Of a stretch of DNA of 64,000 bases, positions 2,610 through 48,347 are shown one piece after another; within the stretch, counting starts at the first letter, position 1; every line of letters starts with the position of its first letter. Under the pieces are notes generated by a model. That model was not told the origin of the DNA. It ran no database searches and saw only the letters and a program-made list of their open reading frames with translations. The stretch comes from Hydrocarboniphaga sp. (GTDB lineage: Bacteria; Pseudomonadota; Gammaproteobacteria; Nevskiales; Nevskiaceae): NCBI RefSeq assembly GCF_028291725.1, contig NZ_JAQGNT010000007.1:1-64000 (forward strand), in the 5' to 3' direction. Position numbers and translations under genes: made by a program.

Positions 2610-3905
2610 CTACGCCGCCACATCCCATCTCACCGGCAGTGAGAGTACGCCGCGTATCGTCCAGCCGGTGATTTTGGGAGTTGGGACTGATGGATCCCAC
2701 CGCAAGTTTGGCAGATCGTCAAGCATCCGCTCTAAGAAGCGCGCTATCTCCAAGCGAGCCAAGTGCATACCAATACAGGTATGTGCTCCATTGCCAAACG
2801 CCATATGGGCCATCGGTCTCTGGCGGGTAATATTGAAGACATGAGGATCCAGCCAACGAGAAGGATCTCGATTGATGACCGCGTGAAGGACATAGACGAT
2901 CGATCCCTTCGGGATTGGCACCCCCAGAAGTTCGCTGTCACGGGTAGCGATACGGGGCATCATCGAAGCGACGCCCTCGTAACGTAGGGCCTCTTCGATC
3001 GCGGCCGGGATCAGCCCACGGTCCGCCTTGAGCTTTTCGAACTCGACTGGATGCGCCAATAGCAACTGAACAATGTTGCTCGACATTTTATAAACGGTAT
3101 CGATACCGCCCTGCATGAGGTGCGTGATCATTGCGACGAAGTTTTCGATCGGAATCGGCTCACCGTTGACTTCGGCTTGAGTCATTGCAGACACCAAATC
3201 GTCTTTGGGTGCTCGTCGGCGCTCTTCGATCAGGCGCAAGGAATACGCTTTCATTCCCTGCCCTGCTTCAAAGGCCCCCATTGGATCAAGATTGAATTGC
3301 TGAATCTTCTTGAAGCACTGCGCCACATAGACAATGTCGGACGGATCGAAACCGACTACCGCACCCACGATGTCGTATGGAAAATACGGGGTCAGTTCCC
3401 GGACCAAATCGGCGCGGCCTTTCTGCTTGAGGTTAGCGAACCGTCGAGCCAAGCATGGCCGAATAATCTTTTCATCCCAGGAGGCAACGAGCTTGGGCAC
3501 AAAGCCGAGTTGCATATGAGAGCGAAACTTCGTGTGCTCAGGCGGATCCATCATAAAGATGCCTGGCCCCCAAAATTGTCCGGTGGTCTCCCCGAAGACG
3601 CTGGAAGAAAAGACTTCCGGATTCATATAGACCACCCGGCCGGCCTCCCACGTCGTCGCTGCGAACGAAGACTTCGAGTCGTGCGCTGGGCTCACCATGA
3701 TGCTAGGCAGGACAAAGCGCCCAAAAGCTGTCCCTACTCCTTTGACGACGGGTCCGATCTGCTGCAATGATGACAGCTCGCGCACTGTATCGTCGAGGCG
3801 ATCAAGCTCGGCAGTATCGTCAGGATGGCACTGAAGCGCTTCGCCATCAGGGTCCATCGTTGATGACAGTTCGGAATAAGCCGGAAAAGAGTCGGTAGCG
3901 CTCAT
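2610..3905 (-). CDS. Cytochrome P450 (first)
   Basis: The product is a 431-residue soluble bacterial-type P450. Seen directly: the I-helix oxygen-binding segment LMQGGIDTV, the ExxR motif in EEALRYEG, and the heme loop FGNGAHTCIG with the proximal ligand Cys377. P450s of this class take electrons from a 2Fe-2S ferredoxin; a suitable one is encoded at 18189. No ferredoxin reductase gene is seen. It reads toward the TetR gene. The substrate is unknown, and the close resemblance in plan to the second P450 at 34652 suggests related substrates. An inverted repeat, CGTTCG-N-CGAACG, lies 40-70 bases upstream (about 3949-3976). Confidence 0.93.
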   Translation of the reverse strand: MSATDSFPAYSELSSTMDPDGEALQCHPDDTAELDRLDDTVRELSSLQQIGPVVKGVGTAFGRFVLPSIMVSPAHDSKSSFAATTWEAGRVVYMNPEVFSSSVFGETTGQFWGPGIFMMDPPEHTKFRSHMQLGFVPKLVASWDEKIIRPCLARRFANLKQKGRADLVRELTPYFPYDIVGAVVGFDPSDIVYVAQCFKKIQQFNLDPMGAFEAGQGMKAYSLRLIEERRRAPKDDLVSAMTQAEVNGEPIPIENFVAMITHLMQGGIDTVYKMSSNIVQLLLAHPVEFEKLKADRGLIPAAIEEALRYEGVASMMPRIATRDSELLGVPIPKGSIVYVLHAVINRDPSRWLDPHVFNITRQRPMAHMAFGNGAHTCIGMHLARLEIARFLERMLDDLPNLRWDPSVPTPKITGWTIRGVLSLPVRWDVAA

Positions 3906-4074: not shown

Positions 4075-4389
4075 TTCTTATTTCTCTCTGCCGCGGCGAC
4101 CACTTCCAATCGAGCATCATCAGGACCGCGCCCCAGCCCACGCTCCGGGCATCGGGCTTGGCGATCGAGCGCCCGGCCCGACGACACTCACCGCAGCGCA
4201 GCTGCGCCGTGTGCGAGGTGTGTAATCCATGGTCCCTGGGTTATTGCGCCCCAACTCGCGGCTGATCGTCGAAGCCGAGCGTCCCAGCAACCGACCCATC
4301 GCCCTCATGTTGGAGCCTTGCAACTCCGTACTCGCCATCATCATCCGTTCATCGGGCTGACGCTGTTCGCACCGCGTTCGCTCTTGCAT
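4075..4389 (-). pseudogene. IS30-family transposase remnant
   Basis: The minus strand encodes the IS30 N-terminal helix-turn-helix (STELQGSNMRAMGRLLGRSA then STISREL). After about residue 56 the frame shifts: the continuation in another frame reads LRCGECRRAGRSIAKPD and ends in LDWKWSPRQRE, matching the following IS30 segment. The DDE catalytic domain is absent. This is a decayed fragment without coding capacity. Confidence 0.75.
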
Positions 4390-4881: not shown

Positions 4882-5862
4882 ATGAACACCTATCAACCTG
4901 ACAGTGAGACGCTGGTGGACATTTATAGAAAGATGACGCTGATCAAACAAAGTGATGATCGAGTGATCGGCGCGATGAAGGCGGGACGCATGCGCATGCC
5001 GTATTACTCGGCGCGCGGGCAGGAATGCATACCGGCGGCGATCAGCGTACTGCTGACCGATGAGGACTATCTCGTGACGATTTATCGCGGCGTTCACGAC
5101 ATGCTCGCCAAGGGTTTGCCAGCCAAGCTCTTGTGGGCCGAGCTGGCCGGTAAGGCCACCGGTAGTTGCAAGGGCAAGGGCGGCCCGATGCATCTGACCT
5201 ACCCCTCCAAGGGCTGCATGGTGACCACCGGCATCGTCGGCTCCAGCATGCCCATCGCCTGCGGCCTGGGGCTGGCGTCGCAGCTCCGCGGCGAGAAGCG
5301 CGTGACCATCGCGAACTTCGGTGACGGAGCCAGCAATATCGGGGCGTTTCACGAATCGTTGAATCTCGCTGCCGTGTGGAAGCTGCCGGTGATCTTCGTT
5401 TGTCAGAACAATCAGTACGCCGAGCACACGTCCTATTCGAAGGGCACGTCGGTGGCGAAGATCTCCGACCGTGCCGTCAGTTATTGCATCCCTGGTCTGC
5501 ATGTCGATGGAAACGATCCCATCGCCATGTATAGCGCCGCGAAGACCGCGATTGAACGGGCTCGTTCCGGTGAGGGCCCGACCCTGATAGAGGCGATGAC
5601 GTTCCGCTTCAACGGACATCTGATTGGCGACATGGGCGAGTACATTCCGAAAGCCGAGTACGCTGCTGCGGTCGCTGCCGACCCCTATCCGAAGTACCGC
5701 AGTTGGTTGCTCGAGACCAAGCAGGCCAGCGAGGCCGATCTGGATGCGATCGATCTGGCGATCAGGGCCGAAATCGATGAAGCCGAAGCCTTCGCGATGA
5801 GCAGCCCGCCGCCGGACGCGATTGAAGTCAAGCGCGACGTTTACGCCTACGAAATCGCCTGA
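4882..5862 (+). CDS. 2-oxoacid dehydrogenase E1 component, alpha subunit
   Basis: The product (326 residues) is a thiamine-diphosphate enzyme subunit of the pyruvate/acetoin/branched-chain dehydrogenase type. The ThDP motif runs from GDGAS (residue 147) to NN (176-177), and the substrate-side segment GKGGPMHLTYPSKG is typical of acetoin and pyruvate E1-alpha. It decarboxylates a 2-oxo acid (or acetoin-like compound) and passes the acyl group to a lipoyl domain together with the beta subunit encoded 13 bases downstream. It heads a four-gene operon: E1-alpha, E1-beta, lipoyl protein, E2 catalytic protein. The true substrate cannot be read from sequence. ATG 4882 is preceded by GAGGTGCGGCG. Confidence 0.92.
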   Translation: MNTYQPDSETLVDIYRKMTLIKQSDDRVIGAMKAGRMRMPYYSARGQECIPAAISVLLTDEDYLVTIYRGVHDMLAKGLPAKLLWAELAGKATGSCKGKGGPMHLTYPSKGCMVTTGIVGSSMPIACGLGLASQLRGEKRVTIANFGDGASNIGAFHESLNLAAVWKLPVIFVCQNNQYAEHTSYSKGTSVAKISDRAVSYCIPGLHVDGNDPIAMYSAAKTAIERARSGEGPTLIEAMTFRFNGHLIGDMGEYIPKAEYAAAVAADPYPKYRSWLLETKQASEADLDAIDLAIRAEIDEAEAFAMSSPPPDAIEVKRDVYAYEIA

Positions 5863-5875
5863 GGAGGCCCAGAGC

Positions 5876-6874
5876 ATGAGTACCGAAACCAAGGCTCCGG
5901 CCAACATCAACTTGATTCAGGCTCTGAACTGGGCGCTGCATGACGCGATGGAGGCCGATGAGAACGTGATCGTCTTTGGCGAAGAAGTCGCTGATCCAGA
6001 AGGCGGTGGCGTGGTGAAGATCAGCTCCGGCCTGTCGACCAAGTACGGCAGTCGCGTGCGCTCCACGCCGATTTCAGAGATGGGCTTCATGGGCGCTGCG
6101 GTCGGCGCCGCGGTCGTCGGGATGAAGCCGGTGGTGGAGATCATGCTGATGAACTTCGTCGCGGTGTGCATGGACCAGATCACGAACCATGCTGCGAAGT
6201 TGCGCTTCATGTCCGGTGGCCAAACGCATGTGCCGATGGTCATCCGCACAATGACCGGCTCGGGCATCCAGAATGGTGGCCAGCACTCGGACTTCCTCGA
6301 AGCCTGGTTCTGCCATACGCCGGGCATCAAGGTCGTGATGCCCAGCAACCCGGTCGATGGCTATGGTCTGCTGCGGTCAGCCATCGATGATCCGGACCCT
6401 GTTCTGTTCGTCGAGCATCTGAAAAGCTATTTCGCGCCGGGCATCGCACCGGAGCGCGGCTCCAAGATCCCGCTAGGCAAAGCACGTATTCACAAGGCTG
6501 GTACCGACGTTACCGTGATTGGATACAGCCGCTCGATGCTCGATATCCCGCCGGTAGCAGCGAAACTGCAAGCCGAAGGCATCAGCTGCGAAGTCATCGA
6601 TCTGCGCACGGTGTCCCCGCTGGACATGGAGACCATTCTCACCTCGGTCAAGAAGACGGGTCGCGTCGTGGTGGTGCACGAGGCGGTGAAGTCCTTTGGT
6701 GTGGGGGCGGAGATTTCCGCGCGCATTCACGAGGCCTTGTTCAAGGAGCTGAAGGCACCCGTGCAGCGCGTGGCCAGCAACGACAGCCCGGTGCCGTATG
6801 CGCCGCCGCTGGAAGCCGCCTTTCTTTATAGCCACGCGGACATCGAAGCCGCAATCCGCAGGACCCTCGCCTGA
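5876..6874 (+). CDS. 2-oxoacid dehydrogenase E1 component, beta subunit
   Basis: The 332-residue transketolase-type beta subunit shows the N-terminal FGEEVADPEGG segment, the ISEMGFMGAAVGAA region and the C-terminal transketolase domain ending in VPYAPPLEAAFLYSHADIEA. The start is ATG 5876 because GAGGAGG at 5861-5867 is well placed and the family begins here; a longer in-frame extension upstream overlaps the E1-alpha gene. With the alpha subunit it forms the alpha2beta2 E1 that binds ThDP and reductively acylates the lipoyl group. It is the second gene of the operon. Confidence 0.92.
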   Translation: MSTETKAPANINLIQALNWALHDAMEADENVIVFGEEVADPEGGGVVKISSGLSTKYGSRVRSTPISEMGFMGAAVGAAVVGMKPVVEIMLMNFVAVCMDQITNHAAKLRFMSGGQTHVPMVIRTMTGSGIQNGGQHSDFLEAWFCHTPGIKVVMPSNPVDGYGLLRSAIDDPDPVLFVEHLKSYFAPGIAPERGSKIPLGKARIHKAGTDVTVIGYSRSMLDIPPVAAKLQAEGISCEVIDLRTVSPLDMETILTSVKKTGRVVVVHEAVKSFGVGAEISARIHEALFKELKAPVQRVASNDSPVPYAPPLEAAFLYSHADIEAAIRRTLA

Positions 6875-6905: not shown

Positions 6906-7136
6906 ATGAGCACTGAAATTATCCTGCCCAAAATCGGCTTCTCGATGGACGAAGGCACTATCGCTGAATGGATGGCGGCCGACGGCGCGAGCGTCGAAAA
7001 AGGCCAGCCGCTCTATTCGCTGGAATCCGAGAAGTCCGTGCAGGAGATCGAAGCCCCTGTTTCCGGCACGCTGAAGATCCTCAAGGGAACCGGCGAGAGT
7101 TATCCGGTCGGTACCGTCATAGGGGAGATCGCTTGA
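6906..7136 (+). CDS. Stand-alone lipoyl-domain protein
   Basis: The product is only 76 residues and is exactly one biotinyl/lipoyl hammerhead domain: LPKIGFSMDEGTIAEWM at the N-terminus, the exposed hairpin LESEKSVQE with the predicted lipoyl Lys43, and a closing VGTVIGEIA strand. In usual E2 proteins this domain is the N-terminus of the acyltransferase; here it is a separate gene. Its stop overlaps the next start (TTGA at 7133-7136), so the two should be translationally coupled. It probably acts as a free swinging arm between E1 and the catalytic E2 protein. An in-frame extension upstream of ATG 6906 lies inside E1-beta and is rejected. Confidence 0.88.
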   Translation: MSTEIILPKIGFSMDEGTIAEWMAADGASVEKGQPLYSLESEKSVQEIEAPVSGTLKILKGTGESYPVGTVIGEIA

Positions 7137-7876
7137 GCGAAGCGCCCAATCCGCCGGCCGGGTTGGAGCTTGCGCCATGGCCGCAGGTGGACTTCGCCGC
7201 GTTTGGCGAAGTCCAGGTCAGGCCACTGTCGCGCATCCAAAAGCTTGTCGGCAGTTTCCTGTCGCGCAACTGGGTGATGATTCCGCATGTCACGCATCAG
7301 GACGAGGCCGACATCGGCGCGATGGAGATCGCACGCAAAGCGCTCACTGCCGGCAGCGGGATCAAGATCACGCCACTGGCGTTCATGGTGAAGGCGGCGG
7401 TCGCAGCGTTGAAGGCTTATCCGCAGTTCAACGCCTCGATCGACGGCAGCGGCAAAAATCTCGTCTTCAAGAAATACTTCCATATCGGCATCGCGGTCGA
7501 CACGCCCGGTGGCTTGCTGGTGCCGGTAATTCGCGATGCGGATCGCAAGAGCCTGCCGGAAATCGCGCAGGAGATTTCGGAGGTCTCCGCGATGGCGCGA
7601 ACCAAGGGCTTACCGATGGATCGGATGTCCGGCGGCTGCTTTAGCATCAGCTCGCTGGGCTCCATTGGCGGCACCAGCTTCACGCCGATCATCAACGCAC
7701 CGGAAGTGGCGATCATGGGGATCACCAAGGCATTTCTTAAACCGGTCAACGTCGACGGCCAGCTGGTCTGGAAGAACACGGTGCCGCTGTCGCTTTCCTA
7801 CGATCATCGCGTGATCAACGGTGCCGATGCTGCACGATTCTGCATCCGTTTTGGGCAGGCTCTTTCCGAGCCATGA
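7133..7876 (+). CDS. 2-oxoacid dehydrogenase E2, catalytic domain only
   Basis: The 247-residue product is the chloramphenicol-acetyltransferase-like catalytic domain of an E2 acyltransferase. The active-site motif is SYDHRVINGADAARF with His225; most family members have Asp where this has Asn (DHRVVDG). It has no lipoyl domain and no clear peripheral-subunit-binding domain; only about 35 residues precede the catalytic fold. The start is taken as TTG 7133, overlapping the stop of the lipoyl gene and preceded by AGGGGAG at 7121-7127; no ATG or GTG lies before the catalytic domain in this frame. The E3 dihydrolipoamide dehydrogenase is not in the window and may be supplied by the host. Confidence 0.85.
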   Translation: MSEAPNPPAGLELAPWPQVDFAAFGEVQVRPLSRIQKLVGSFLSRNWVMIPHVTHQDEADIGAMEIARKALTAGSGIKITPLAFMVKAAVAALKAYPQFNASIDGSGKNLVFKKYFHIGIAVDTPGGLLVPVIRDADRKSLPEIAQEISEVSAMARTKGLPMDRMSGGCFSISSLGSIGGTSFTPIINAPEVAIMGITKAFLKPVNVDGQLVWKNTVPLSLSYDHRVINGADAARFCIRFGQALSEP

Positions 7877-8055: not shown

Positions 8056-8350
8056 TTGCTTGCGACCGCCGCACTCGCTGCGCTATCCGTGAGCGATGCC
8101 GTGAAGTCGCGTCGGAGTATCCGGTCCTCCTTTCTGGCCACGCGCGCTGATCCCCCACTGCTACGAAAACTGATCGAACTGGCGGCTCGGGCGCCATCTG
8201 GCGGCAACCCGAAGCCGTGGCGCATCACCGTTCTGGGCGGACAAGAAGTTGGATCAGCTCCGGGCTGAGATCGCGGCACGGCTTCAGAAAAGGCCTGCCA
8301 ACGATTCTCTGGAGTATGAAATCCATCCATCCGAACTGGCGCAATCTCGG
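8056..8350 (+). pseudogene. Nitroreductase-family N-terminal fragment, frameshifted
   Basis: The frame from 8056 encodes SVSDAVKSRRSIRS and ELAARAPSGGNPKPWR, the FMN-phosphate-binding start of nitroreductases. Near 8245 the sense continues one frame over (LDQLRAEIAARLQKRPANDS, then LEYEIHPSELAQ) and stops resembling the family near 8350. About two thirds of the protein is missing. It lies between the E2 gene and the convergent GST gene and looks like debris of an earlier gene order. Confidence 0.7.
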
Positions 8351-18681: not shown

Positions 18682-20901
18682 TTAGGCTGCGACTGATTCA
18701 GCGGTGGGCGCAGATTCGGTCGCGTTCATCTCTGTAGCCGAGGCCTTTTCAAGCGCAACCTCAATTCCATCGATCAGAGTAGTCCCCGAAACGAATTCAA
18801 TAGATTGCAGTCCGAGACCCAGCAAACGATTGATGTTCACCCCGTTGGTATTGTTGGCCCGTCGCCAACTGCCGCCGCTGTGACCCCAACCATGCGGATA
18901 GGCGACCGCGCCACGCACAACTTCGTTGGAGAGCCGAACAGGGACCTTCAAGCGATCTGCCGAGGTGCGGATGTACACGAAATCTCCATCGGCTACGTCA
19001 AGTTCGGCAGCGTCGTGAGGGTGGATCGTGAGCGCAGGCTTTTGCGAGCGCACGAGTCGATCGACGTTGTGCATCCAGGAATTGAGCGAGCCGATTCTGC
19101 GTACGCTCAATAGACGGAAACGCGGCTGTGGCCTCCGCTCTGCAAATAGACGTGCCAACTCAGATTCCACCGCTGGTTGCCAAAGGTGAATTTTTTGATC
19201 CGGATAGGCAATTCGTTTTCTCCAGGTGAGATAAGTGTGCGGCACATCAACCATCACACCATGCGGGTACTGGCGCAGCTTCTTCACAGACCAGCCGTTT
19301 TTGCGCAGTCCGAAGCGGTCACCGACCGGGCCCAGGCGGAGCCCAATATCGAACATCGTCATCGGGCGCAGCGCGAGACCCAGTTTGCCAATGAAGCGCT
19401 TGAGCTTTGAAGCGGATGGTGCGCCGAGGCCCATCCGGCGCACGATCGCCAGATAAATGTCGAATCCATCACGCGCTTCGCCCAAGGGATGGATCACGGC
19501 GTCGGTGAACTGGATGAATGGACGGATCATGAAACCCAGTCCGACGATCGGAAGATCCGGTCGCTCTAGAAAAGTGGTACCCGGCAAAATGTAATGCGCG
19601 TGCCGGTTGGTTTCATTGACATACAGATCGAAGGACACCATGAAGTCCAGGGCCTTCAGAGCCTCTTCCAGCCGAGCGCCGCCCGGCGCACTGAGCAGCG
19701 GATTGCCACAGCTCACAAGCAGCGCGCGGACCTTGCCCGGCCCGTCGATGAGGATATCGTCGGGCATCATGGCACTCGGAAGAAAGCCGGCAACGGAGGG
19801 CGAATCGCCATGGCGGCTCCTGGATTCGCCATAGCCACCCACGGTGGATTTTTGAGACGGAAACACCTCGCGGCCGAACATGGTCCCGCCTTCGAGGTTA
19901 TAGGTGCCAGTGGCCGCGTTGAATGCTGTGACGAGGAAATTGGTCAGCGTCGCGTATGGCCCGCGGCAGATGCCGATTCGGCTATAGATGGTCGAGCGCT
20001 TGGCGCGTACGAAACCGCGGGCAACATCGCGAATGGTTTCTGCAGCCACTCCACACCCGCGCGCGCAAGCTCCCACGTCGTTTCGCAGCACCTGGAGGCG
20101 CAATGAATCCCAACCGACGACGTCACGAGACAGAACGTCCGGGTCGATCAGGTTCTCGTCCTGCAGGACTCGGAACATGCCGAGCAGCATCCAGACATCT
20201 CCGTTAGGAAGAATGGGCAGGTGCTCATAGCGCGCCGCAGTTTCCGAGCGCCGCGGGTCCACGACCAGTACTCGCCCCCGCTCGGCGATTTCATCGAAAT
20301 CATGCCGTATACGCGGCGCCCACATAAGAGAGCCGTTGGAGATCATGGGATTCCCGCCCATCACGATCAGGTAATCGCAACTCGGCAGATCGGGAATTCC
20401 GGTCGTCCACGGTGCGCCGTAAGCCACGTAGTTAGCGAGCAAGCGGGCATTGGTATCTTGGGAACTCGCGCCGTGCTGCCGAGTGCTGCCCATCGACGCC
20501 AGCAGTTCCAACTGGACCACGAAGTTTTCGCTGGCGAACGCCGTCGGATTGCCAAGATAGGAGGCGATGGCGTCCGGGCCATGCTGCTTGCGGATTGTCT
20601 TGAGCCTGGAGCCAATGTCATCGAGCGCCTCGTCCCAGCTCACCGGCGCAAACTCGCCGGGCCCGCCAACTCGCTTGAGCGGCCGGAGGACGCGATCGGG
20701 GTCATAGGTGATCTCTGCCGCCGACGTACCTTTAAGGCAGACATGGCCCAACGAATGCGGGTTGCGCTTATCAGGAGTGAGTTTGACCACTCGCCCTTCG
20801 CGAACAGAGGCAACAATTCCGCAATGTGCTTCACAAAGCCGACAAAATGTAGCGTGGTTGCCATCGGTGCCGATAGGAGGATTTGGCTTCTGGGTCGTCA
20901 T
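18682..20901 (-). CDS. Molybdopterin oxidoreductase, single subunit (first)
   Basis: The product (739 residues) belongs to the DMSO-reductase/formate-dehydrogenase superfamily. Seen: the N-terminal 4Fe-4S ligands Cys20, Cys23, Cys27, Cys55 (CRLCEAHC and VCLKG), the cofactor regions PVSWDEALDDI, VMGGNPMISNGSLMW and VVDPRRSETAARYEHLP, and a C-terminal molydopterin-binding domain (LTIHPHDAAELDVADGDFVY, then AYPHGWGH). No selenocysteine TGA is present. No Tat signal or partner subunit is encoded nearby, so it probably works in the cytoplasm with a diffusible electron carrier. ATG 20901 follows GAGGAGAG. A paralogue is at 36709. The substrate is unknown. Confidence 0.9.
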   Translation of the reverse strand: MTTQKPNPPIGTDGNHATFCRLCEAHCGIVASVREGRVVKLTPDKRNPHSLGHVCLKGTSAAEITYDPDRVLRPLKRVGGPGEFAPVSWDEALDDIGSRLKTIRKQHGPDAIASYLGNPTAFASENFVVQLELLASMGSTRQHGASSQDTNARLLANYVAYGAPWTTGIPDLPSCDYLIVMGGNPMISNGSLMWAPRIRHDFDEIAERGRVLVVDPRRSETAARYEHLPILPNGDVWMLLGMFRVLQDENLIDPDVLSRDVVGWDSLRLQVLRNDVGACARGCGVAAETIRDVARGFVRAKRSTIYSRIGICRGPYATLTNFLVTAFNAATGTYNLEGGTMFGREVFPSQKSTVGGYGESRSRHGDSPSVAGFLPSAMMPDDILIDGPGKVRALLVSCGNPLLSAPGGARLEEALKALDFMVSFDLYVNETNRHAHYILPGTTFLERPDLPIVGLGFMIRPFIQFTDAVIHPLGEARDGFDIYLAIVRRMGLGAPSASKLKRFIGKLGLALRPMTMFDIGLRLGPVGDRFGLRKNGWSVKKLRQYPHGVMVDVPHTYLTWRKRIAYPDQKIHLWQPAVESELARLFAERRPQPRFRLLSVRRIGSLNSWMHNVDRLVRSQKPALTIHPHDAAELDVADGDFVYIRTSADRLKVPVRLSNEVVRGAVAYPHGWGHSGGSWRRANNTNGVNINRLLGLGLQSIEFVSGTTLIDGIEVALEKASATEMNATESAPTAESVAA

Positions 20902-21069
20902 TTGACTCTCCTCGTCACTGATGCCCACCCCTCTAGTGCTCAGCCATTTCGTGGTACCGGGGTAGCGGTCCGGCGCTACTGATCAGAGTGCTGCTGACGA
21001 CGCTGGTCATTTTGGCTGGCCGCTCAGGATCACGTAATCGAGAGCGCTACACAGCGACACTTCGACGGT

Positions 21070-27977: not shown

Positions 27978-29411
27978 TTACTCAGCAGTCGAGGTACGCT
28001 TCCCTTCATCAATGAGACGATCGATCACTTTTGCCATCGTCGCGATGCGTACTTCTTGACGGGACAAGCGAGACGCTTCGAATCCATCGCTGTGTATCCC
28101 GCGTTGGGTCAGCACCACGTTCGCGTAGTCCTGATCCAAGATCATTCCATAGCTGCGCGTGCCTTCGTCCGCGTAAGTGCGCGCAGCCGGAGGCACGAGC
28201 TTGCGTTGTGCCTCACTCATCTTCTGAAAAATCATTGTCTGAATGGTCATTCGATCCGGGTCACTCGCATGCGGCCGCATCGACAGGAGCAAGAAGCCGC
28301 CGGCGGTAATATTGAAGACCAAGCCCGGGAATAAGTAGTAGTGCCAGTCGTCAATGTACTGAGCGCGCGACAATCCGCTCACATTGATTTCGCGATCTTG
28401 GATGATCTTCTCCATTTTGGAGATCAGAAATTCACGACCGTTTTTGTGCTGCTCTGCGATTTCGCCCTTGGTTGGATTGTTGCCCTTTGCCGTGTCCCAG
28501 TCGAAAGCGACTCGGGAAAGATCGATTTCACTCCCGCGCAGGATTCCACCGGAGTGGATAAACTCGCGTACGACATCGTGTTCAGTGTATGAAGCAAGCC
28601 TGGGGCTAGGCACACCGAATGGAATGATCGCCCGGCTATGTCCGAATCGCTTGCTAACCACTTCCATGGCCGTATTGACATCGTCCGAGGCCGCCAGAAA
28701 TTGTGGGTGGACGCCGTTGACGTGATAGATCTCGACAAAGGCCTCGACTGTAGTCTTCCAGTTCGCGGACAGCGGATGGATGACGTTCACCACGAGGTTC
28801 ATGTCCTGAAGCCGATAGGGCTCCAGTTGATCGACGACCGGCCCCAGAAATTCTTTTAGACTGATCGCATTGGCGGAATTGGGATTGATAAAAACAAGCC
28901 CTGCCCAGGTCTCGCATTGCACTGAACGCAACGACAGGTCGCCGTCAAGGGAATCAAAGGTGTGCCGGTCCGGTATGACCTGAAGGGCTCCGTCGAGTTT
29001 CCAGGTCCAGCCATGGAAGGGACACCGAATACTCTTGGCACTCCCACAGCCCTCGGCCAGGCGATTGCCGCGATGCTGACACGTATTGTGGTATGCCTTC
29101 AGGCCACCATCGTTTTGCCGGACGACGAGGTAGCCTTGGTCGGCGATGTCATACGTGACGAAGTCGCCGGGCTTGGCGAGTTCTTGTTCGGTACCGGCGA
29201 ACTGCCAAGTGCGCTTCCAAATATGCTGAAGTTCGTCCTTTAGACGCTCCGGAGCGATATAGTTTTTCTTCGGCAGCCGGCGATACTTTTCATCGATAGC
29301 GAGATCTTCGTAGAAGGCCGTGCCTTTTGGAAACCGAAGCTGATACGGGAGGATGTGCGAGTGATACTTCGTATTGCTTTCGGTAACGAGGTCAACTAGC
29401 TCTTCTGACAT
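27978..29411 (-). CDS. Rieske non-heme iron oxygenase, alpha subunit
   Basis: The 477-residue protein has the Rieske centre with Cys111, His113, Cys130 and His133 (CQHRGN and CPFHGWTWKLDG), and the mononuclear iron site with the His pair in VEIYHVNGVHPQF; the carboxylate ligand is probably in the C-terminal DDWHYYLFPG segment. It would hydroxylate or dihydroxylate a ring or demethylate its substrate. No beta subunit or reductase lies beside it, so it is of the alpha-only type, and the ferredoxin at 18189 or host proteins may feed it. AGGAGAG precedes the ATG. It is probably co-transcribed with the upstream LLM flavin monooxygenase gene (35-base gap). Confidence 0.92.
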   Translation of the reverse strand: MSEELVDLVTESNTKYHSHILPYQLRFPKGTAFYEDLAIDEKYRRLPKKNYIAPERLKDELQHIWKRTWQFAGTEQELAKPGDFVTYDIADQGYLVVRQNDGGLKAYHNTCQHRGNRLAEGCGSAKSIRCPFHGWTWKLDGALQVIPDRHTFDSLDGDLSLRSVQCETWAGLVFINPNSANAISLKEFLGPVVDQLEPYRLQDMNLVVNVIHPLSANWKTTVEAFVEIYHVNGVHPQFLAASDDVNTAMEVVSKRFGHSRAIIPFGVPSPRLASYTEHDVVREFIHSGGILRGSEIDLSRVAFDWDTAKGNNPTKGEIAEQHKNGREFLISKMEKIIQDREINVSGLSRAQYIDDWHYYLFPGLVFNITAGGFLLLSMRPHASDPDRMTIQTMIFQKMSEAQRKLVPPAARTYADEGTRSYGMILDQDYANVVLTQRGIHSDGFEASRLSRQEVRIATMAKVIDRLIDEGKRTSTAE

Positions 29412-34651: not shown

Positions 34652-35893
34652 TCAGGGGGCATCCCAGACGACAGGCAGCGACAAAGCGGATCGCAGGGTC
34701 CAGCCCAGAATAGGCGGCGGCGTACCGTTTGTTGCAGGATCCCATCGAACACCGGGCAGATGCTCAAGCACCTGCTCCATATAGATCTGCAATTCTTTAC
34801 GGGCTAAGTGAAGTCCGATACAGGCGTGAGCGCCGTAACCAAAACCGAGATGCGCCTTGGACTCGCGCGAGATATCGAATTCGTGCGGCCTGTCCCAGCG
34901 GCTTGGATCACGATTGGCCGCAGCCATCATGACGTAGACCATGGACCCCGCCGGAACTGAAATGCCTCCGACGCTAGTGTCGTGCTTGGCCCGGCGCGGA
35001 AACATTGACGCTGGGCCTTCGAACCGAAGCGTTTCCTCGATGCTGGGACCGATCAATGCAGGATTCGTCCTGAGACGTTCGAGCTGCTCGGGGTGGCTGA
35101 GTAACAAATGCGTCAGGTTAGACGCCCCGCGAAACGTTGTTTCCATTCCGGCCGGGAACAGATGGAAGATGAAGGCTTTGAGGTTCTCATCGCTAAGTCG
35201 TACCCCATCGACTTCGGCGACCATCAGGACCGAAATAAAGTCGTCGCGTGCAATCTTGCGACGCTCGGCAATGTACTTATCGACATAGACGTTCATCTCG
35301 GCCGACGCTTTCATTGCCGCGTCGAAGTCGTAAGTCGCACGCGTCATTTTGGTGATGCGATCGCTAACGTACTGCACATCTTCCGTGGGAAACCCCAGAA
35401 TTCTGCAGATGATTTCGTAAGGAAACAAAAGTGTGACCTCATGTGCCAAGTCTGCACGGCCCTGATGTTTGACGGCGACAATCGTGCGCTCAATCACGGG
35501 ACGAATGATCTCGGCATCCCATGCCGCGACGATGCGAGGATTGAACCCCATCTGAAGCAGCGCCCGATAGCGCGAATGCTCTGGGGGGTCCATGCCGAAC
35601 AAGCCGCGTCCCACGGCTCTTTCCAGCGTCTCCCGATACAAGTCGGATGAGAAGTTCTCGGTATCGATCAACACCTGCCGTGCTGCGTCAAAGGACAGCG
35701 CCGCAAACGATGGCACGTCGTCGTGATGCCCGAAGAAATTGGGCAGGACCAAAGCCTCAAAGCGAGTTCCCTGGCCTTTGAGCATGGCTCGTCCGTTGGC
35801 GACTCGACAGATCTCCAGAACAGGATGAACGGCCGCCTCCAGATCGGTGACATCGTCAATCGGCTTCATGATCTGGCTAGCAGTAATGGTCAT
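34652..35893 (-). CDS. Cytochrome P450 (second)
   Basis: The 413-residue P450 shows the I-helix segment LFPAGMETTFRG, the ExxR motif in EETLRFEG, and the heme loop FGYGAHACIG with ligand Cys358. Regions around RYRALLQMGFNPRIVAAWD align in plan with the first P450 (2610), so the two are likely paralogues with related substrates. It heads a run with the aldehyde dehydrogenase and ADP-forming ligase and has an operator 47 bases upstream. A P450 that hydroxylates a terminal methyl group to alcohol and aldehyde would fit the enzymes that follow; this is inference. Confidence 0.93.
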   Translation of the reverse strand: MTITASQIMKPIDDVTDLEAAVHPVLEICRVANGRAMLKGQGTRFEALVLPNFFGHHDDVPSFAALSFDAARQVLIDTENFSSDLYRETLERAVGRGLFGMDPPEHSRYRALLQMGFNPRIVAAWDAEIIRPVIERTIVAVKHQGRADLAHEVTLLFPYEIICRILGFPTEDVQYVSDRITKMTRATYDFDAAMKASAEMNVYVDKYIAERRKIARDDFISVLMVAEVDGVRLSDENLKAFIFHLFPAGMETTFRGASNLTHLLLSHPEQLERLRTNPALIGPSIEETLRFEGPASMFPRRAKHDTSVGGISVPAGSMVYVMMAAANRDPSRWDRPHEFDISRESKAHLGFGYGAHACIGLHLARKELQIYMEQVLEHLPGVRWDPATNGTPPPILGWTLRSALSLPVVWDAP

Positions 35894-36708: not shown

Positions 36709-38973
36709 CTAAGAAGTTGCGGACTCATGAGGCATGTTCGCACCCAGTAAAGCCGACTCGGTCATCTCTGCGGCTCTTGAAATGCGAATCGGAATTCCGG
36801 TCAGTATTGACATCCCCGCGATCGGCTCGATGTCCTCAAGCGCACCGCTGGCCAGGATGTTGGAATTGACGCCACCGGAGCGGTTGGCAATCTTCCACCC
36901 ACCGCTATGACCCCATCCATGAGGTAGCGCGACGGTGCCAGGAAAAATATCGGCAGTTAGCTTCACTGCGGTACGAATGCTGCCGCTCTTGGAGGTGATC
37001 GTGATGGCATCGTCTGCTGTAATGCCGTGGGCCGTCGCGTCGATCGGATTGAGATGCGCCACGTGCCGTCGCGCTGAAGGCATCACGCGCGGAATGTTGT
37101 GCAACCAGGAGTTCTGTGAGCGAATCTCACGCATGCCGATCAGGCGCAGCGGGAACGCCGGGTCATCCAGATGCCCGCGGAGCCGGTTTAATTCATCTTC
37201 AAGGATCGGCGGACATACATTGATCCGCTTGTCTGGCGTATGCAGCCTTTGCCGGAGTGGACGGGTCGGCAGCTCATGCTTGAGGAGCACACCATCGGGA
37301 TGATGCTCACGCAGCTTTTTCAGGCTGTAGCCTCCTCGCTTCAATCCGAACCAGTCGCCGGCAGGTCCGGTTCGGACCAGCAGGTCTGCGATCATTGATG
37401 GGGTTACATGCAAGCCGATCCGGGCCAGCCAGCGCAGGGCTCGAACACTGTAAGCGCCGCCCAGGCCAGAACGTCGGGCAATTTCCTGCAGAATCTTCCA
37501 CTCCTCGCGAACCTCGCCTCGCGGCGGCACTACGGCCGGACTCCACCAGAGGGCCGGCCGCAGCATCAAGCCGAGCGCCGCTATCGGCAGATCCTCTCGT
37601 TCGTAGAAGCTGGTCACAGGAAGGATGAAATGTGCGTGCTTGTTCGTCTCATTGACATAGAGGTCCAGCGAGAAATGAAGATCAAGCTGCTCCAGAGCAT
37701 CCTCCATCGCCTTACCGCCACCGGCGCTGCTATGCACCGCGTTGGTTCCAACAGTGACAAGAGCGCGGACCTGCCCCGGACCTTCCGTCGTGATATCCGG
37801 AACCAGCGATGTCGACGGCAACATCCCAAATACGTCAGGGTGGCCGAAGACGCGTGTGCGCTGTTTGGAATAGGTCGCGAAGCCTCCGGCTTCGGCAAAC
37901 TTCTCAAGATCCACTGCGGCCCAGCCAAAGACGTAGCCGCCGGGTCGTTCGATGTTGCCTGTCAGTGCGTTGACGAAGTCCTGCAACAAATTATTGAGTG
38001 TACCGAAACGTTGAGTGCAGGTTCCGGTGCGCCCGTAAACAACACCAGATTCGGCAGCCGCAAAGTCCCGGGCAAGCTGTCGCAAGACTGCGGCATCGAC
38101 ACCGCTGCGTATCGCGCATTCTTCGACGGAGAAGGATTGCAACAGCGCTTCCATCCGTTCGGCCCCTGAAACGTGTTTCCGGACAAACTCCCGCGCAACG
38201 AGATCTTCTTCCTGAAGCGTGCGAATCAAGCCAATCAGAAACCAGGTGTCACTGCCGGCGCGAACGGGCAAGTGCTCGAATGCCCGAGCGGTCTCGGAGC
38301 GCCTCGGATCGACGACTACGACACGACCGCCTCGCTCTACGACGCTGTGCAAGGCTTCGCGGACTTTTGGCTCGGAAAACGTAGAGCCGTGTGATACGAA
38401 TGGATTTGCGCCGAGCATCAGAACGAATTTCGTGCGCCATAAATCCGGCTTTAGAAGAATGGCCGGCGACCCGTACAGGAAGAAGTTGGCCACCTGCCGC
38501 GCCGCCGCGTCGTCGGCGTTGACGCCGTATCGCCACTTGATCTGGAACGCATCCTGAAACCCACTCAGAAAAAAAGCGACACCCATTCCGAATGCAGGTG
38601 GGTTGCCCATGAAACTCGCGAAGGCGTGGTTGCCGTATTGTTGGCGCACGCGGCCTAGCCGCTCGACAATCTCATCCAAAGCTTCGTCCCAGCTCACTGC
38701 TTCAAACTGTCCGGGAGCGCCAACCCGTTTCAGTGGCGTAACAACCCGGTCTGGATCCTTGATCACGTCAGCGGCGGCAGCAGCCTTCACGCACAAGTGC
38801 CCCTCGGAAAAGACGTGTTGACGGTTTCCTTCGATCTTGGTGATCTCGCCGCCTTCAACAGTTGCCAGCAAAGCGCACTGTGGCTCGCAAATTCGGCAAT
38901 GCGTCCGCCGCTGCAGGGGCCCATTCAACAGTTCGAGTTGAGGTTTTCTCACAGGTTGAACTCCAACGCCCAC
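36709..38973 (-). CDS. Molybdopterin oxidoreductase, single subunit (second)
   Basis: The 754-residue paralogue of the enzyme at 18682 has 4Fe-4S ligands Cys26, Cys29, Cys33 and Cys61 (CRICEPQC and HLCVKA), then PVxSWDEALD-type cofactor regions (FEAVSWDEALDEIVERLG), LMLGANPFVSHGSTF, VVDPRRSETARAFEHLPV and the C-terminal domain with ALPHGWGHSGGWKI. Both copies share DLYVNETN(K/R)HAH and the pattern of a soluble one-subunit enzyme without Tat signal. No Sec codon is present. The start is GTG at 38973 or 38952; the latter has GGAG upstream. It forms an operon with the SnoaL-like gene. Substrate unknown. Confidence 0.9.
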   Translation of the reverse strand: MGVGVQPVRKPQLELLNGPLQRRTHCRICEPQCALLATVEGGEITKIEGNRQHVFSEGHLCVKAAAAADVIKDPDRVVTPLKRVGAPGQFEAVSWDEALDEIVERLGRVRQQYGNHAFASFMGNPPAFGMGVAFFLSGFQDAFQIKWRYGVNADDAAARQVANFFLYGSPAILLKPDLWRTKFVLMLGANPFVSHGSTFSEPKVREALHSVVERGGRVVVVDPRRSETARAFEHLPVRAGSDTWFLIGLIRTLQEEDLVAREFVRKHVSGAERMEALLQSFSVEECAIRSGVDAAVLRQLARDFAAAESGVVYGRTGTCTQRFGTLNNLLQDFVNALTGNIERPGGYVFGWAAVDLEKFAEAGGFATYSKQRTRVFGHPDVFGMLPSTSLVPDITTEGPGQVRALVTVGTNAVHSSAGGGKAMEDALEQLDLHFSLDLYVNETNKHAHFILPVTSFYEREDLPIAALGLMLRPALWWSPAVVPPRGEVREEWKILQEIARRSGLGGAYSVRALRWLARIGLHVTPSMIADLLVRTGPAGDWFGLKRGGYSLKKLREHHPDGVLLKHELPTRPLRQRLHTPDKRINVCPPILEDELNRLRGHLDDPAFPLRLIGMREIRSQNSWLHNIPRVMPSARRHVAHLNPIDATAHGITADDAITITSKSGSIRTAVKLTADIFPGTVALPHGWGHSGGWKIANRSGGVNSNILASGALEDIEPIAGMSILTGIPIRISRAAEMTESALLGANMPHESATS

Positions 38974-42280: not shown

Positions 42281-42769
42281 GGTCATTCTGCCCATATCGG
42301 GCGAGAGATTGAAGTTCACTACCGTTGGCACCCGCTTTATGGGCATCGATTGCGCCTTCAGTACAGCGAGCAGCGTCGTGGCGGCGGTGTGTATCACGTC
42401 GAAAGTGCTCCTGGGGTCGTAACGACAGTGCCGGATTGGATGGCCGATGCCAGCATATGCGCCGGCATGACACTCGGCGCACCGCGCGCCTCAATCGATG
42501 CGTTGACGGACTTGCACAGGTTACTTGCGGAGCGCGGATTTCGACGAAGCTCCGAGGGCGATATCGACATCGTCCAGGAGGAGCAAGATGATCAAACCCA
42601 AAAGGATCCTGCCGAAGGCGGGACTTCAATCGATGCAGCAGTTCCGCATCGCGTTCGAGTCGCGGTGGCTTCAGGGGCTGAGTGCGACGGAGCGCAAGAA
42701 GGCTCTCACGCATTTCGCCACTCTACTGCTAGAGGCCGCCGGCGTTGCGACCCAGGAGCGCCACGATGA
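42281..42769 (+). CDS. Hypothetical WHPLYG-domain protein of the recombinase element
   Basis: The frame reads IEVHYRWHPLYGHRLRLQYS then GVVTTVPDWMADASICAGMT and DALTDLHRLLAERGFRRS, then DIVQEEQDD. It resembles the small DUF5372-like proteins often found just before large serine recombinases. No ATG or GTG start occurs near the element's left end, so the start is unresolved; it may be a TTG at 42350 or a rare start, or the gene may be 5'-truncated. After EEQDD the frame overlaps the next gene for some 180 bases and is probably a non-conserved extension. Function unknown. Confidence 0.45.
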   Translation, partial: GHSAHIGREIEVHYRWHPLYGHRLRLQYSEQRRGGGVYHVESAPGVVTTVPDWMADASICAGMTLGAPRASIDALTDLHRLLAERGFRRSSEGDIDIVQEEQDDQTQKDPAEGGTSIDAAVPHRVRVAVASGAECDGAQEGSHAFRHSTARGRRRCDPGAPR

Positions 42770-42779
42770 CGAGCGCTGA
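42588..42779 (+). CDS. Small hypothetical protein preceding the recombinase (63 aa)
   Basis: The protein is basic and helical (MIKPKRILPKAGLQSMQQFR then LQGLSATERKKALTHFATLL) with no enzymatic motif. CCAGGAGGAGC precedes ATG 42588 and its end overlaps the recombinase start (ATG 42766) by 14 bases, pointing to coupled translation. It is likely a conserved accessory of this element type, perhaps a recombination factor; that is inference. Confidence 0.7.
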   Translation: MIKPKRILPKAGLQSMQQFRIAFESRWLQGLSATERKKALTHFATLLLEAAGVATQERHDDER

Positions 42780-44838
42780 TTCGCTGCCGGCGACCGTTCT
42801 TAGCCGGAAAGCCGTCGTCTATGTTCGACAGTCGACCCAATCGCAGGTGCAGATGAATCTGGAAAGCCGGCGGCGGCAATACGATCTGGTCGAAGAAGCG
42901 CGCCGCCGCGGCTTCACTAAAGTTGAGGTGATTGACGATGATCTTGGACGCTCGGCCAGCGGCACCGTGGCCCGGCCAGGATTTGATCGTTTGGTTGCGT
43001 GGCTGTGTGCAGGTGAGGTCGGAGCCGTGCTTTGCTTCGACGCGTCGCGGCTCGCTCGCAATGGCCGCGATTGGCATCATCTGCTCGAGCTGTGTGGCCT
43101 GGTCGAGGCTCGCGTGATCGACATGGACGGTATCTATAATCCGTGCCGGCCGAACGATCGATTGCTGCTCGGCATGAAGGGCAGTATCAGCGAGTTCGAG
43201 TTGGGCATCCTGAGTTCTCGAATGCTCGATGCGGCCCGTGCAAAAGCGCGTCGCGGCGAGCTGCGCATCAGCGTACCGATCGGATATCTCTGGCACCGCG
43301 AAGTTGGGCTTGGGTTCGATCCGGATCTGCGCCTTCAGGAGGCGATCCGTCTGATTTTTGCCCGCTTTCGCAAAGTGGGCAGTGCGCGCCAGGTGTTGCT
43401 GTCGATGGCTGCCGAAAAGTTTTTCTTTCCGCGGCCGTCCGACGGAAAGAAGATGGTGAGCTTTGATTGGACGCCGATCCGCTACCGCAACGTCATCTCG
43501 GTACTGAAAAATCCGTTCTATGCGGGGGCTTACATTTATGGCAAGAGCGAAAAGCGTTCGACCATTACTGACGGTCGTGTTCGCAAGACCTACGGACATG
43601 GAAAAACATTCGATCAATGGGAGGTTATGATCAAGGATCACCACGCCGGATATATCGAGTGGGAAGAGTTCGAGCGCAATCAAAAACTGCTCGCGGCCAA
43701 TGCCTACGGTCAGGCCGGCGGGCTCAAATCGGGGCGCGGCGGACGCGCGCTGTTGCCACGGCTTTTGCGGTGTGGTCAGTGCGGGAGGCGCTTGATGGTC
43801 AGCTACTCGGGGCGCGGACCCGGCCAGCCCGTTTATCGTTGCGACCGACCCAATCTGACATTTGGCAGCCGGCGGTGCATGACGTTCGGTGCTGTGCGCC
43901 TCGACGCGGCTATCGCCCGCGAGTTGCTGCGCGCGGTCGAGCCGATGGCAATCGAAGCGGCCCAGCAAGCCGCGCATAGATACATGGAAATTCAAGGCGA
44001 AGAACGACGGATCGCGGAGCTGGATTTGCAGCAGGCATGATACGAATCCTCGCTCGCTGAGCGCCGTTACGCGGCATGCGATCCAGAGAATCGACTGATC
44101 GCCGCACAGCTTGAAAAAAGCTGGGAAGCAGCACTGCAGCGCGTCCAGGCCTGCGAGGCAAGGCTGACCACTGCAAAGAAACCCAGCCCTACCATTGATA
44201 CTCCCGATTTCACAGGGATCGCCGACGACTTGATGGCTGCTTGGAGCGCGCCGGGTGTCACGATGCGAGCACGCCAGCAATTGCTGCGCGCGCTGATCGT
44301 CGACATCGGCGCTGACTACGATGAGACCAATCGCGACATCACTCTGACAATCCACTGGCGTGGAGGCCAGCACTCCCAGCTCCAAGTCAAAAAACCAAAG
44401 ACTGGGGAGCACGGTTGCCGCACGCCCGATGAGGCGCTCGCAGTGATGCGTCGCATGGCAGGGCGATGGTGCGATACGGATATCGCGGCCTCGTTGAATC
44501 GAATGGGCATCCCCACCGGACAAGGAAAAACTTGGAATGCGACCCGTGTCGGGTCGCTCCGGACCGTGCACGGAATCCATGCCTATCGTTCGGCTGAAAA
44601 AGATGGCGAATGGCTCACCATGTCCGAGGCCGCAGTAAAGCTTGGCGTCACCAATCACAAAATCCGCCGCCTCATAAAAGAGGGCGTCTTACCGGCGGAG
44701 CAGGTCGTGTTTGACGCGCCGTACCAAATCCGCGCCAGCGATCTCCAAAGTGAGCAAGTCACGGCTGCGCTCTCCCGCAAAGGTCGCCCGTGTCGGGTCG
44801 TGAGCGAAAATCAAACCGCTTTGTTTCCAGCCACTTGA
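42766..44838 (+). pseudogene. Large serine recombinase, one nonsense codon
   Basis: The full frame spans 690 codons. The N-terminal resolvase domain has the nucleophile Ser23 in VVYVRQSTQSQ, and the Arg-rich LCFDASRLARNGRDW and GSISEFELGILSSRML motifs. The recombinase domain follows (PIGYLWHREVGLGF, ISVLKNPFYAGAYIYGKSEK), then a zinc ribbon (LRCGQCGRRLMVSYSGRG) and a coiled region. Codon 425 is TGA (44038-44040), with the family sense continuing in the same frame (YESSLAERRYAACDPENRL), so an Arg CGA to TGA change is likely. The C-terminal 265 residues include a helix-turn-helix-like WLTMSEAAVKLGVTNHKIRR. A 424-residue product would lack them. Confidence 0.85.
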
Positions 44839-47108: not shown

Positions 47109-47184
47109 TGGTGCCCCGAGCAGGAATCGAACCTGCGACCCTCTTCTTAGGAGGAAGATGCTCTATCCACTGAGCTACCGAGGC
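47109..47184 (-). tRNA. tRNA-Arg (anticodon CCT), complete
   Basis: On the minus strand the gene folds fully: acceptor GCCTCGG with TCGGGGC, D arm, anticodon stem TCTTC/GAAGA with loop CTCCTAA (anticodon CCT), T arm GCAGG-TTCGATT-CCTGC, discriminator A and encoded CCA ending at 47109. It begins 8 bases after the end of the integrase gene, on the same strand. Its 3' half matches the displaced tRNA half at 48442-48487, but in the opposite orientation. It is likely island-borne and may replace the host tRNA damaged by integration. Confidence 0.93.
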
Positions 47185-47192
47185 GAAACGAA

Positions 47193-48347
47193 CTAGGCAG
47201 TACGCCGGAGCATCTGCACTTCTTGCAACAGCGCCGTGATCTGGACGCCGAGATCACCCTGTTGGGTTGCGGCCTGAGTCAGGACATCCATGCGCTTGGC
47301 GATCTGTTCCGCGCGGAGCTGAGTGTATCGTTTGAGCATATCGAGTGTCTTGTGCCCGGTGATCGCGGCGACCTCCATCATCGACAGGCCCAGCTCGAAA
47401 AGCCGGGACGTGCCTTCGTGCCGTAGGTCGTGAAATCGCAGCCCGGAAATGCCGGCGCGCGCACAGGCCCTTTCGAAGGCGCTGCTGAGGGCATCCGGAG
47501 TGAGACCAATAATGCGCCCGCCCGTCGCCGGCCGGCGCATTTTCTGCAAGGTTTCAACCGCCAAAAGACTGAGAGGAACAACACGGGCAATGCCCGTTTT
47601 CATGGCTCCCAGTTCTTCAGCACGGATCGTTGCCGTCCTCGCCTCGTAATCGATATCCCGCCAGTCCATCGCGCATAGCTCGCCGCGCCGGGCCGCGGTT
47701 TCGATAGCCAGAGTGATCACGTTGCTGACGATGTGGTTTGCGGCGGTCGCTCCCAGCAGTCGCCTGGCTTCGTCCCCAACCAGCCGCCGATCTCGGCCCG
47801 GACCTTCAGGCGGACGATCGACGCCACGAGCAGGATTCCCGAACGGCAGCCGGTAGCCCCAGTTCTTTGTGGCGAAATCGACGATGCGAGCCAGGAACGC
47901 CATCTCTTTTTTGATGGTTGAAGTGCTGACAAGACGATTCAGCACAATGGAATTCTGCCCTTTACGCCCGCCGCCGCGCAGAGCTCGCTGTTTGAGTCGG
48001 TCCTCTCGATATTGCACGACCCGTTCCGGCGTCAGCCGCCCGATCGCGATCCGTCCCAGATCACGGGTTAGCGGCATCGAGCAAGAACGGGCGTGCTGTG
48101 GCGAACCGAGCTTGATGACCTCCTCCCGAAGGTAGCGCTCGATGATCGTCTCAAGGGGGTCATTTTTTGCGCGCTCAATGCCGGCAACATCCGCGCCCTG
48201 ATCGATAAAGCGCTCCTGCTCGGTAGCCCACCGGTCAGCGATACCCCGCGTCGCAAATGTCCTGGTCTGCCGGGGGACACCTTGCTTCGTGACGGTTACG
48301 TCCCAGCGTGCTTTTCCGTTTACCATCCGCTTACGAAATGAAGCCAT
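47193..48347 (-). CDS. Tyrosine-recombinase integrase
   Basis: The 384-residue phage/island-type integrase has an N-terminal AP2-like arm-binding region (GKARWDVTVTKQGVPRQTRT), a SAM-like core-binding domain and the catalytic domain with Arg220 (AARRGEL), His306-x-x-Arg309 (FHDLRH), His332 (ITGHKT) and Tyr341 (LKRYTQ). All catalytic residues are intact. A coiled tail of about 40 residues follows. It lies 95 bases from the attachment site at 48442-48487 and is read away from it. It should insert the island into tRNA-Arg(CCT). Confidence 0.93.
   Translation of the reverse strand: MASFRKRMVNGKARWDVTVTKQGVPRQTRTFATRGIADRWATEQERFIDQGADVAGIERAKNDPLETIIERYLREEVIKLGSPQHARSCSMPLTRDLGRIAIGRLTPERVVQYREDRLKQRALRGGGRKGQNSIVLNRLVSTSTIKKEMAFLARIVDFATKNWGYRLPFGNPARGVDRPPEGPGRDRRLVGDEARRLLGATAANHIVSNVITLAIETAARRGELCAMDWRDIDYEARTATIRAEELGAMKTGIARVVPLSLLAVETLQKMRRPATGGRIIGLTPDALSSAFERACARAGISGLRFHDLRHEGTSRLFELGLSMMEVAAITGHKTLDMLKRYTQLRAEQIAKRMDVLTQAATQQGDLGVQITALLQEVQMLRRTA

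Follow-up and report, generated by a model that had tools for sequence, protein, structure and literature searches.

A 2-oxoacid dehydrogenase-type E2 split into a free lipoyl protein and a catalytic-only protein in Hydrocarboniphaga sp. and its conservation in other genomes

Textbook substrate channelling relies on a lipoyl arm that swings on a single E2 chain. The usual partner of an AceF-type E2 is the homodimeric AceE, and in acetoin dehydrogenase the AcoC protein is made of a lipoyl domain and an alpha/beta hydrolase. Proteins that consist of a lipoyl domain only are also on record, as an archaeal class of them has already been catalogued (PMC3904984). With respect to oligomeric state, a short C-terminal helix is described as the trimer-joining knob of E. 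coli E2p (PMC8421416), and the actinobacterial E2p is described as staying a trimer owing to a C-terminal insertion (PMC10415282).

Here we describe a locus of Hydrocarboniphaga sp. in which the lipoyl domain and the acyltransferase are encoded by separate genes; "the window" denotes the whole stretch of DNA that was analysed, 64,000 nucleotides in length. Annotators label such parts by domain only, i.e. as 'lipoyl domain-containing protein' and '2-oxo acid dehydrogenase subunit E2', and a split E2 of this kind is not described among the matches listed in the open-access literature (titles and beginnings of abstracts).

The split operon and its proteins

The genes and the junction between the two E2 pieces are the following:

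4882-5862, plus strand: E1alpha gene, 326 aa, alpha2beta2-type E1; PF00676 E=2.2e-77; GDG...NN ThDP motif
5876-6874, plus strand: E1beta gene, 332 aa; PF02779 and PF02780; NF006667 334 bits, cut-off 321; GGQHS motif
6906-7136, plus strand: lipoyl protein gene, 76 aa, ATG 6906-6908, stop 7134-7136; PF00364 E=5.8e-15
7133-7136, plus strand: TTGA shared by the end of the lipoyl gene and the start of the E2 gene, as read in the window
7133-7876, plus strand: catalytic-only E2 gene, 247 aa, TTG 7133-7135, stop 7874-7876; PF00198 E=5.3e-72

The initial annotation had proposed that an E2 is divided here into a 76-residue lipoyl protein and a catalytic-only protein, that the two genes share a TTGA overlap and that the catalytic part lacks a subunit-binding domain. 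Open reading frames and Pfam matches bear out the coordinates and sizes, the overlap is present at 7133-7136, and the catalytic part has no PF02817 match at E<=1. The TTG at 7133 is a predicted start, and a stretch AGGGGAG, spotted by eye, lies ahead of it at 7121-7127. PF00198 is the sole Pfam match of the E2 protein at E<=1 and of its stop-to-stop frame at E<=0.1, so that the single chain with lipoyl, subunit-binding and catalytic domains that marks a 2-oxoacid dehydrogenase is not found in this operon, which has two ORFs in its place. The AceF model TIGR01348 gives the E2 332 bits, under its cut-off of 552, as is expected for a protein that corresponds to one domain of a longer model.

Two other hallmarks of a 2-oxoacid dehydrogenase are found at the sequence level. 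A ThDP-dependent E1 is indicated by PF00676, PF02779, PF02780 and the GDG...NN motif; a simple pattern recovers this motif in 12 of 14 full-length E1alpha relatives and misses it in L098 and L105, and the best NCBIfam model of E1alpha, TIGR03182, scores 290 bits, under its cut-off of 394. A lipoyl domain with an acceptor lysine is indicated by PF00364 and Lys43 (7032-7034), the predicted lipoylation site, which is invariant in 19 out of 19 aligned relatives. The family model closest to the lipoyl protein is the lipoyl part of acetoin-dehydrogenase E2, PRK14875 (71 bits, under the cut-off of 307), and the GcvH family PF01597 (GCV_H) also stays under its cut-off (20.9 bits, cut-off 22.2).

For comparison, 124 distinct E2 domain sequences were collected from loci, 24 of them split and 100 located in ORFs with a subunit-binding domain. 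The 100 one-chain sequences represent 99 genes, as L135 is a cut copy of the genome's own AceF (L127), and the 99 include two from the genome under study, the SucB-like and the BCKDH-like E2. Across the full stop-to-stop frames, PF00198 occurs in 24/24 split E2s, while PF00364 and PF02817 occur in 0/24 (Pfam, E<=0.1; two further families match one split E2 each, weakly). The subunit-binding domain is kept in all 99 one-chain genes compared. We base the statement that split E2s have no lipoyl domain on the Pfam scan, because 23 of the 100 canonical sequences escaped a small custom lipoyl profile.

The catalytic residues are in place. His225 (7805-7807) and Asn229 (7817-7819) belong to the loop DHRVINGA, and the active site expected of an E2 is recognisable, the catalytic histidine being invariant in 17/17 sequences. 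The residue four positions past this histidine is Asn in 21/24 and Asp in 3/24 split E2s, as against Asp in 98/98 AceF-type rows. The initial annotation had singled out DHRVINGA as an oddity, but the loop turns out to be ordinary, given how common the Asn is among split E2s and given that the E2p of Azotobacter vinelandii natively has Asn614, four after His610 (PDB titles 1dpb, 1dpc, 1dpd). On the same grounds the idea that DHRVINGA signals altered catalysis was rejected. In E. coli E2o the Asp379Ala variant is reported to have kept 9.5% activity, Asp379 lying four past His375 just as Asn229 lies past His225, yet the variant has no direct bearing on Asn229 since the substitution is Ala and not Asn (PMC5986005).

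In a tree of 24 split, 45 AceF-type and two outgroup sequences, one branch (97/88) sets the split E2s apart, and the AceF-type E2s (92/83) are their neighbours. AceF-type E2p cores are also the best PDB sequence matches. The E2 is thus AceF-type, yet its E1 is of the alpha2beta2 type. The predicted structure model (mean pLDDT 82, low confidence at 1-12 and 177-189) has the E2 core fold; in the structure comparison E. coli E2p 7b9k heads the list (Z 26.1, rmsd 2.4 over 204 residues, 43% identity) and shares this rank with other matches within 1 Z, and the identity to AceF-type cores is 43-48% over about 200 residues.

A conspicuous difference is found at the C-terminus. The ending RRxx[LV] occurs in 93 of 99 canonical one-chain genes and in 0/24 split E2s, whose tails are variable and extend 22 to 49 residues past DHR. 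This missing ending bears indirectly on whether a 24- or 60-meric core is formed. It leads us to predict that the split E2 is a bare trimer; the prediction draws on the tail and not on the structure model, which adds the fold only. As the tails vary, some of them may make another contact.

The lack of an E3 gene nearby, pointed out in the initial annotation, holds for the window: no ORF of at least 80 aa is related to E3 (phmmer searches with two of the genome's own flavoprotein disulfide reductases, E<=1e-5). Nor is there an E3 above 41 bits at 20 split loci, as against 71/79 AceF loci with one above 130 bits. However, the absence constitutes weak evidence of an oddity, because the 19 kb searched around its own canonical AceF locus contain no E3 either. 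For the same reason a special electron acceptor, suggested by the missing E3, is unsupported. Across the genome PF02852 was found at three places: at C26:17434 (about 12 kb from the SucB-like E2 on the same contig), on C40 and on C74, the last in a short frame. Judging from motifs, the C26 protein presumably is a dihydrolipoyl dehydrogenase and the C40 protein presumably resembles glutathione reductase, which makes one shared E3 likely.

Paralogs, relatives and co-occurrence

Seven E2 catalytic domains are encoded in the genome (6.47 Mb in 120 contigs). Four are split, namely the one in the window (C9) and those on C6 (87% identity), at C9:147085 (62%) and on C102 (55%), and three are canonical (C111, C26, C116); all three PF02817 domains of the genome lie inside the canonical E2s. 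The order E1alpha-E1beta-lipoyl-E2 recurs on plasmids of Paraburkholderia sprentiae WSM5005, Paraburkholderia sp. PGU19 and Diaphorobacter sp. HDW4B, as well as in a genome of the same class (G203). Other arrangements exist. Azospirillum sp. B510 has a lipoyl-E2 pair near transposases and an E1alpha relative elsewhere on the plasmid, and on plasmids of Sphingobium sp. RAC03 and Streptomyces sp. NBC_00564 the genes for E1 and the lipoyl protein have no E2 adjoining, the lipoyl gene of Streptomyces being followed by a patatin-like gene. On C102 and in G044 the order is E2, fused E1alpha-E1beta ORF (723 or 730 aa), lipoyl protein; the fused ORFs of this C102-type split system are:

L099, 15352-17520: fused E1alpha-E1beta ORF
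L109, 10579-12768: fused E1alpha-E1beta ORF

Among the best 40 of 248 plasmid records, 17 have an E1alpha 56-66% identical to that of the window, and the next reach at most 43%. Among the Sphingobium relatives, some bear the annotation acetoin oxidoreductase; Sphingobium Tom plasmids have a free lipoyl protein (L125, AP027328.1, 9001-9231) about 18 kb from an E1alpha annotated in this way. Pfam left 12 of 30 naively picked proteins near paralogs and relatives unmatched at E<=1e-8, probably wrong frames, and we have made little use of these neighbourhoods.

We conclude that the split is real and conserved, as the break recurs in paralogs and in independently sequenced named plasmids. The initial annotation, which had recommended a search for the same split elsewhere, was right in seeing a genuine one; what it missed is the conserved family with several paralogs, the pairing of an AceF-like catalytic part with an alpha/beta E1, and the absence of the trimer-joining tail. 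Of 12 adjacent lipoyl-then-E2 pairs inspected at the junction, seven could have a 4-base overlap (GTGA at five, ATGA at one and, in the window, TTGA), and a gap is present at the other five.

Free lipoyl proteins number six in the genome: four are found in clusters that include a split E2, the one on C82 is accompanied by E1beta and a broken E1alpha, and the one on C43 stands alone. At the C82 locus (L141, 9910-11502, minus strand) the E1beta and lipoyl frames are whole, E1alpha is reduced to its last quarter and no E2 adjoins; a transposase-like ORF, identified by eye, lies near this fifth E1/lipoyl locus. Orphan lipoyl proteins are L142 (C43, 10032-10259, minus strand), L198 (8328-8594), L199 (6486-6749) and L200 (7018-7281), and the stretches of 9-15 kb around them contain no E1 or E2 relatives. 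The C43 gene shares its neighbours with G005, a genome of the same genus, and therefore looks like a settled chromosomal gene. A search of viral contigs with the lipoyl profile gave one relative, weak and partial.

In the order, the free lipoyl protein was detected in 18 of 85 genomes (E<=1e-20) and the split-type E2 in 16 of 85 (above 400 bits, other E2s reaching at most 352, a gap that is partly built in as the profile was made from split sequences). Both parts occur in 14 genomes, E2 only in two (G036, where it lies near a contig end, and G458), the lipoyl protein only in four (G005, G006, G007, G026) and neither in 65 (Fisher p=8.7e-11, kinship ignored). The E2 lies outside the E1/lipoyl cluster in eight of the 14 (G004, G023, G038, G047, G048, G049, G056, G459), at a distance of about 3 kb in G048 and at least 16 kb away or on another contig in the remaining seven. 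Across 14 loci, the more the E2s differ, the more the E1beta proteins (r 0.77) and the lipoyl proteins (r 0.74) tend to differ as well (permutation p 0.0001 each, shared ancestry ignored), which is as expected of partners and also fits common descent.

Surroundings, possible mechanism and alternatives

The window contains several genes of a catabolic character, among them:

2610-3905 and 34652-35893: P450 relatives, under the cut-offs of named models
27978-29411: Rieske-type oxygenase, under cut-offs

It also encodes acyl-CoA dehydrogenases, thiolase-like proteins, enoyl-CoA hydratases, a CoA ligase, an aldehyde dehydrogenase and a TonB receptor. Split operons elsewhere are often near genes for the breakdown of complex molecules, and the relative in Paraburkholderia sprentiae adjoins a 3-ketosteroid-delta-1-dehydrogenase (924 bits, cut-off 789) and a ring-hydroxylating (Rieske-type) oxygenase. 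These neighbourhoods suggest that the system could provide an acyl-CoA-forming step in ring-compound breakdown, with a 2-oxoacid or an acyloin/diketone as candidate substrate. A term search for 'acetoin' and 'lipoyl' in the main text of PMC10653915 found neither.

There are a few further points about the window. A tRNA-Arg (CCT) adjoins a phage-type integrase (47109-48347), and GC content is 0.53-0.61 up to 48 kb and 0.64-0.67 beyond (4-kb steps, 1-64000); from these two signs together the catabolic stretch may be a genomic island. A short nitroreductase fragment downstream of the operon (8056-8268, the first 45 of 167 profile positions) is probably a truncated gene, and a nitroreductase is also found near the Paraburkholderia sp. 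PGU19 relative. Upstream, the ORF at 4120-4389 has HTH_38 only, and we take it to be perhaps a remnant of an IS30-like transposase. A serine recombinase with resolvase, recombinase and zinc-ribbon domains is located at 42745-44040. On the minus strand there are two molybdopterin oxidoreductase-like ORFs, one at 18682-20928 (PhsA and formate dehydrogenase models far under cut-off) and one at 36709-38973 (named by eye only).

The reading that we favour, with a probability of roughly two in three, is a dismantled 2-oxoacid (or acyloin) dehydrogenase, in which a free GcvH-like carrier serves between an alpha/beta E1, a small E2 and a shared E3. The substrate would be decarboxylated or cleaved on ThDP by the alpha/beta E1, followed by reductive acylation of the lipoyl group presumed on Lys43. 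The untethered 76-aa protein would then diffuse, like GcvH in glycine cleavage, to the catalytic-only AceF-type E2, which, as the predicted bare trimer, would hand the acyl group to CoA; the carrier would finally be reoxidised by a dihydrolipoyl dehydrogenase encoded elsewhere. As far as sequences can tell, action in trans is likely, and the split pieces may still assemble non-covalently. With the E2 split, its subunit-binding domain missing and no E3 nearby, the classical picture of a tethered swinging arm cannot hold in its usual form, and we infer, in agreement with the initial annotation, that substrate channelling would have to work differently. A bolder version is that a fully untethered acyl-CoA-forming dehydrogenase (diffusible carrier, bare E2 trimer, alpha/beta E1, shared E3) has undergone several rounds of duplication and adaptation within one genome and now cleaves alpha-diketones or acyloins derived from rings, in the manner of acetoin dehydrogenase, during steroid or terpenoid breakdown; this is possible, and we put it forward tentatively. 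Such a system would show in nature how far channelling depends on tethering.

Three other explanations have to be weighed against the dismantled dehydrogenase. The pieces could be accessories of canonical complexes, with E1 and E2 borrowing the AceF core, its subunit-binding domain and E3 in an OdhA/PDH-like supercomplex. OdhA is a precedent for using a lipoyl domain in trans (PMC10415282), the genome has one canonical AceF (C111), the catalytic part of the split E2 is itself AceF-like, and none of the 20 split loci has an E3 of its own at the 41-bit level. Unlike OdhA, however, the split system has its own lipoyl protein, which co-occurs and co-diverges with the E2, and the trimer-joining C-terminal ending of AceF-type cores is missing, so we consider this explanation unlikely. 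It is also conceivable that E1 works as a pair with the free lipoyl protein, for which the split E2 would be just one of several possible acyl acceptors, with no dehydrogenase complex of the usual kind. The plasmids of Sphingobium RAC03 and Streptomyces with no E2 next to E1 and lipoyl protein point this way, as do the patatin-like gene of the latter, the non-adjacent E2 in 8/14 genomes and its absence, at the cut used, from 4/18 genomes with the lipoyl protein. Still, the other 14 of these 18 genomes have a split E2, and the lipoyl and E2 genes can overlap at 7/12 adjacent pairs; we rate such a pair as quite improbable.

The last explanation is a sequencing error or pseudogene, i.e. a continuous E2 broken by a frameshift near 7133, which the initial annotation had named as the possible weak point. 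Rarity alone speaks for it, as the lipoyl protein was found in 3 of 398 genomes of the phylum at the strict cut (E<=1e-22), the genome under study included. It is contradicted by the recurrence of the same break in paralogs and independently sequenced plasmids, by PF00198 standing alone in the whole frames of all 24 split E2s and by the intact catalytic residues. Joining the frames at 7133 would still yield no subunit-binding domain, so the frameshift test fails, and we regard an artefact as hardly credible.

If the dismantled dehydrogenase is real, arm, acyltransferase and docking domain are apart in a natural, conserved system, and what tethering is worth could be measured directly, with the genome's own one-chain E2s serving as controls. 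The system would also assign a function to proteins that are annotated only by a lipoyl or E2 domain, and it may supply a carbon-carbon cleavage step in catabolic clusters such as that of the Paraburkholderia sprentiae relative.

Comparison with known systems

It is instructive to compare the split system with its closest described counterparts. The split E2 shares the catalytic domain and the DHRVI loop with the AceF-type E2p of E. coli and Azotobacter vinelandii, but unlike AceF it has no lipoyl domain, no subunit-binding domain and no C-terminal RRxxL/V, and its E1 partner is of the alpha/beta type. Like GcvH and the LbpA of the sHdr system (as described in PMC6067878), the lipoyl protein is a small, free, single-domain carrier; unlike them, it is of the E2/acetoin type and is placed with E1 and E2 genes. 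The archaeal single-domain lipoyl proteins are lipoyl-only like that of the window, and the part of PMC3904984 consulted draws no operon link to a catalytic-only E2.

The actinobacterial OdhA (PMC10415282) offers a functional parallel, as it has E2 activity with no lipoyl domain of its own and uses one in trans, a mode of action that in the split system would be analogous. The same source describes the actinobacterial E2p as a trimer via its C-terminus, and for the split E2 a trimer is predicted only. The underlying architectures are different, since OdhA is an E1-E2 fusion using the lipoyl domain of E2p while the split system consists of separate pieces with a dedicated carrier.

The similarity to acetoin dehydrogenase is of another kind. 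It lies in the alpha/beta E1 and in the nearest lipoyl family model. What sets the two apart is, for E1alpha, the group of 17 plasmid records at 56-66% identity to the window's protein, with nothing above 43% after it among the best 40 of 248, and, for the E2, the domain content: unlike AcoC, in which the lipoyl domain is joined to a hydrolase, the split E2 consists of PF00198 only.
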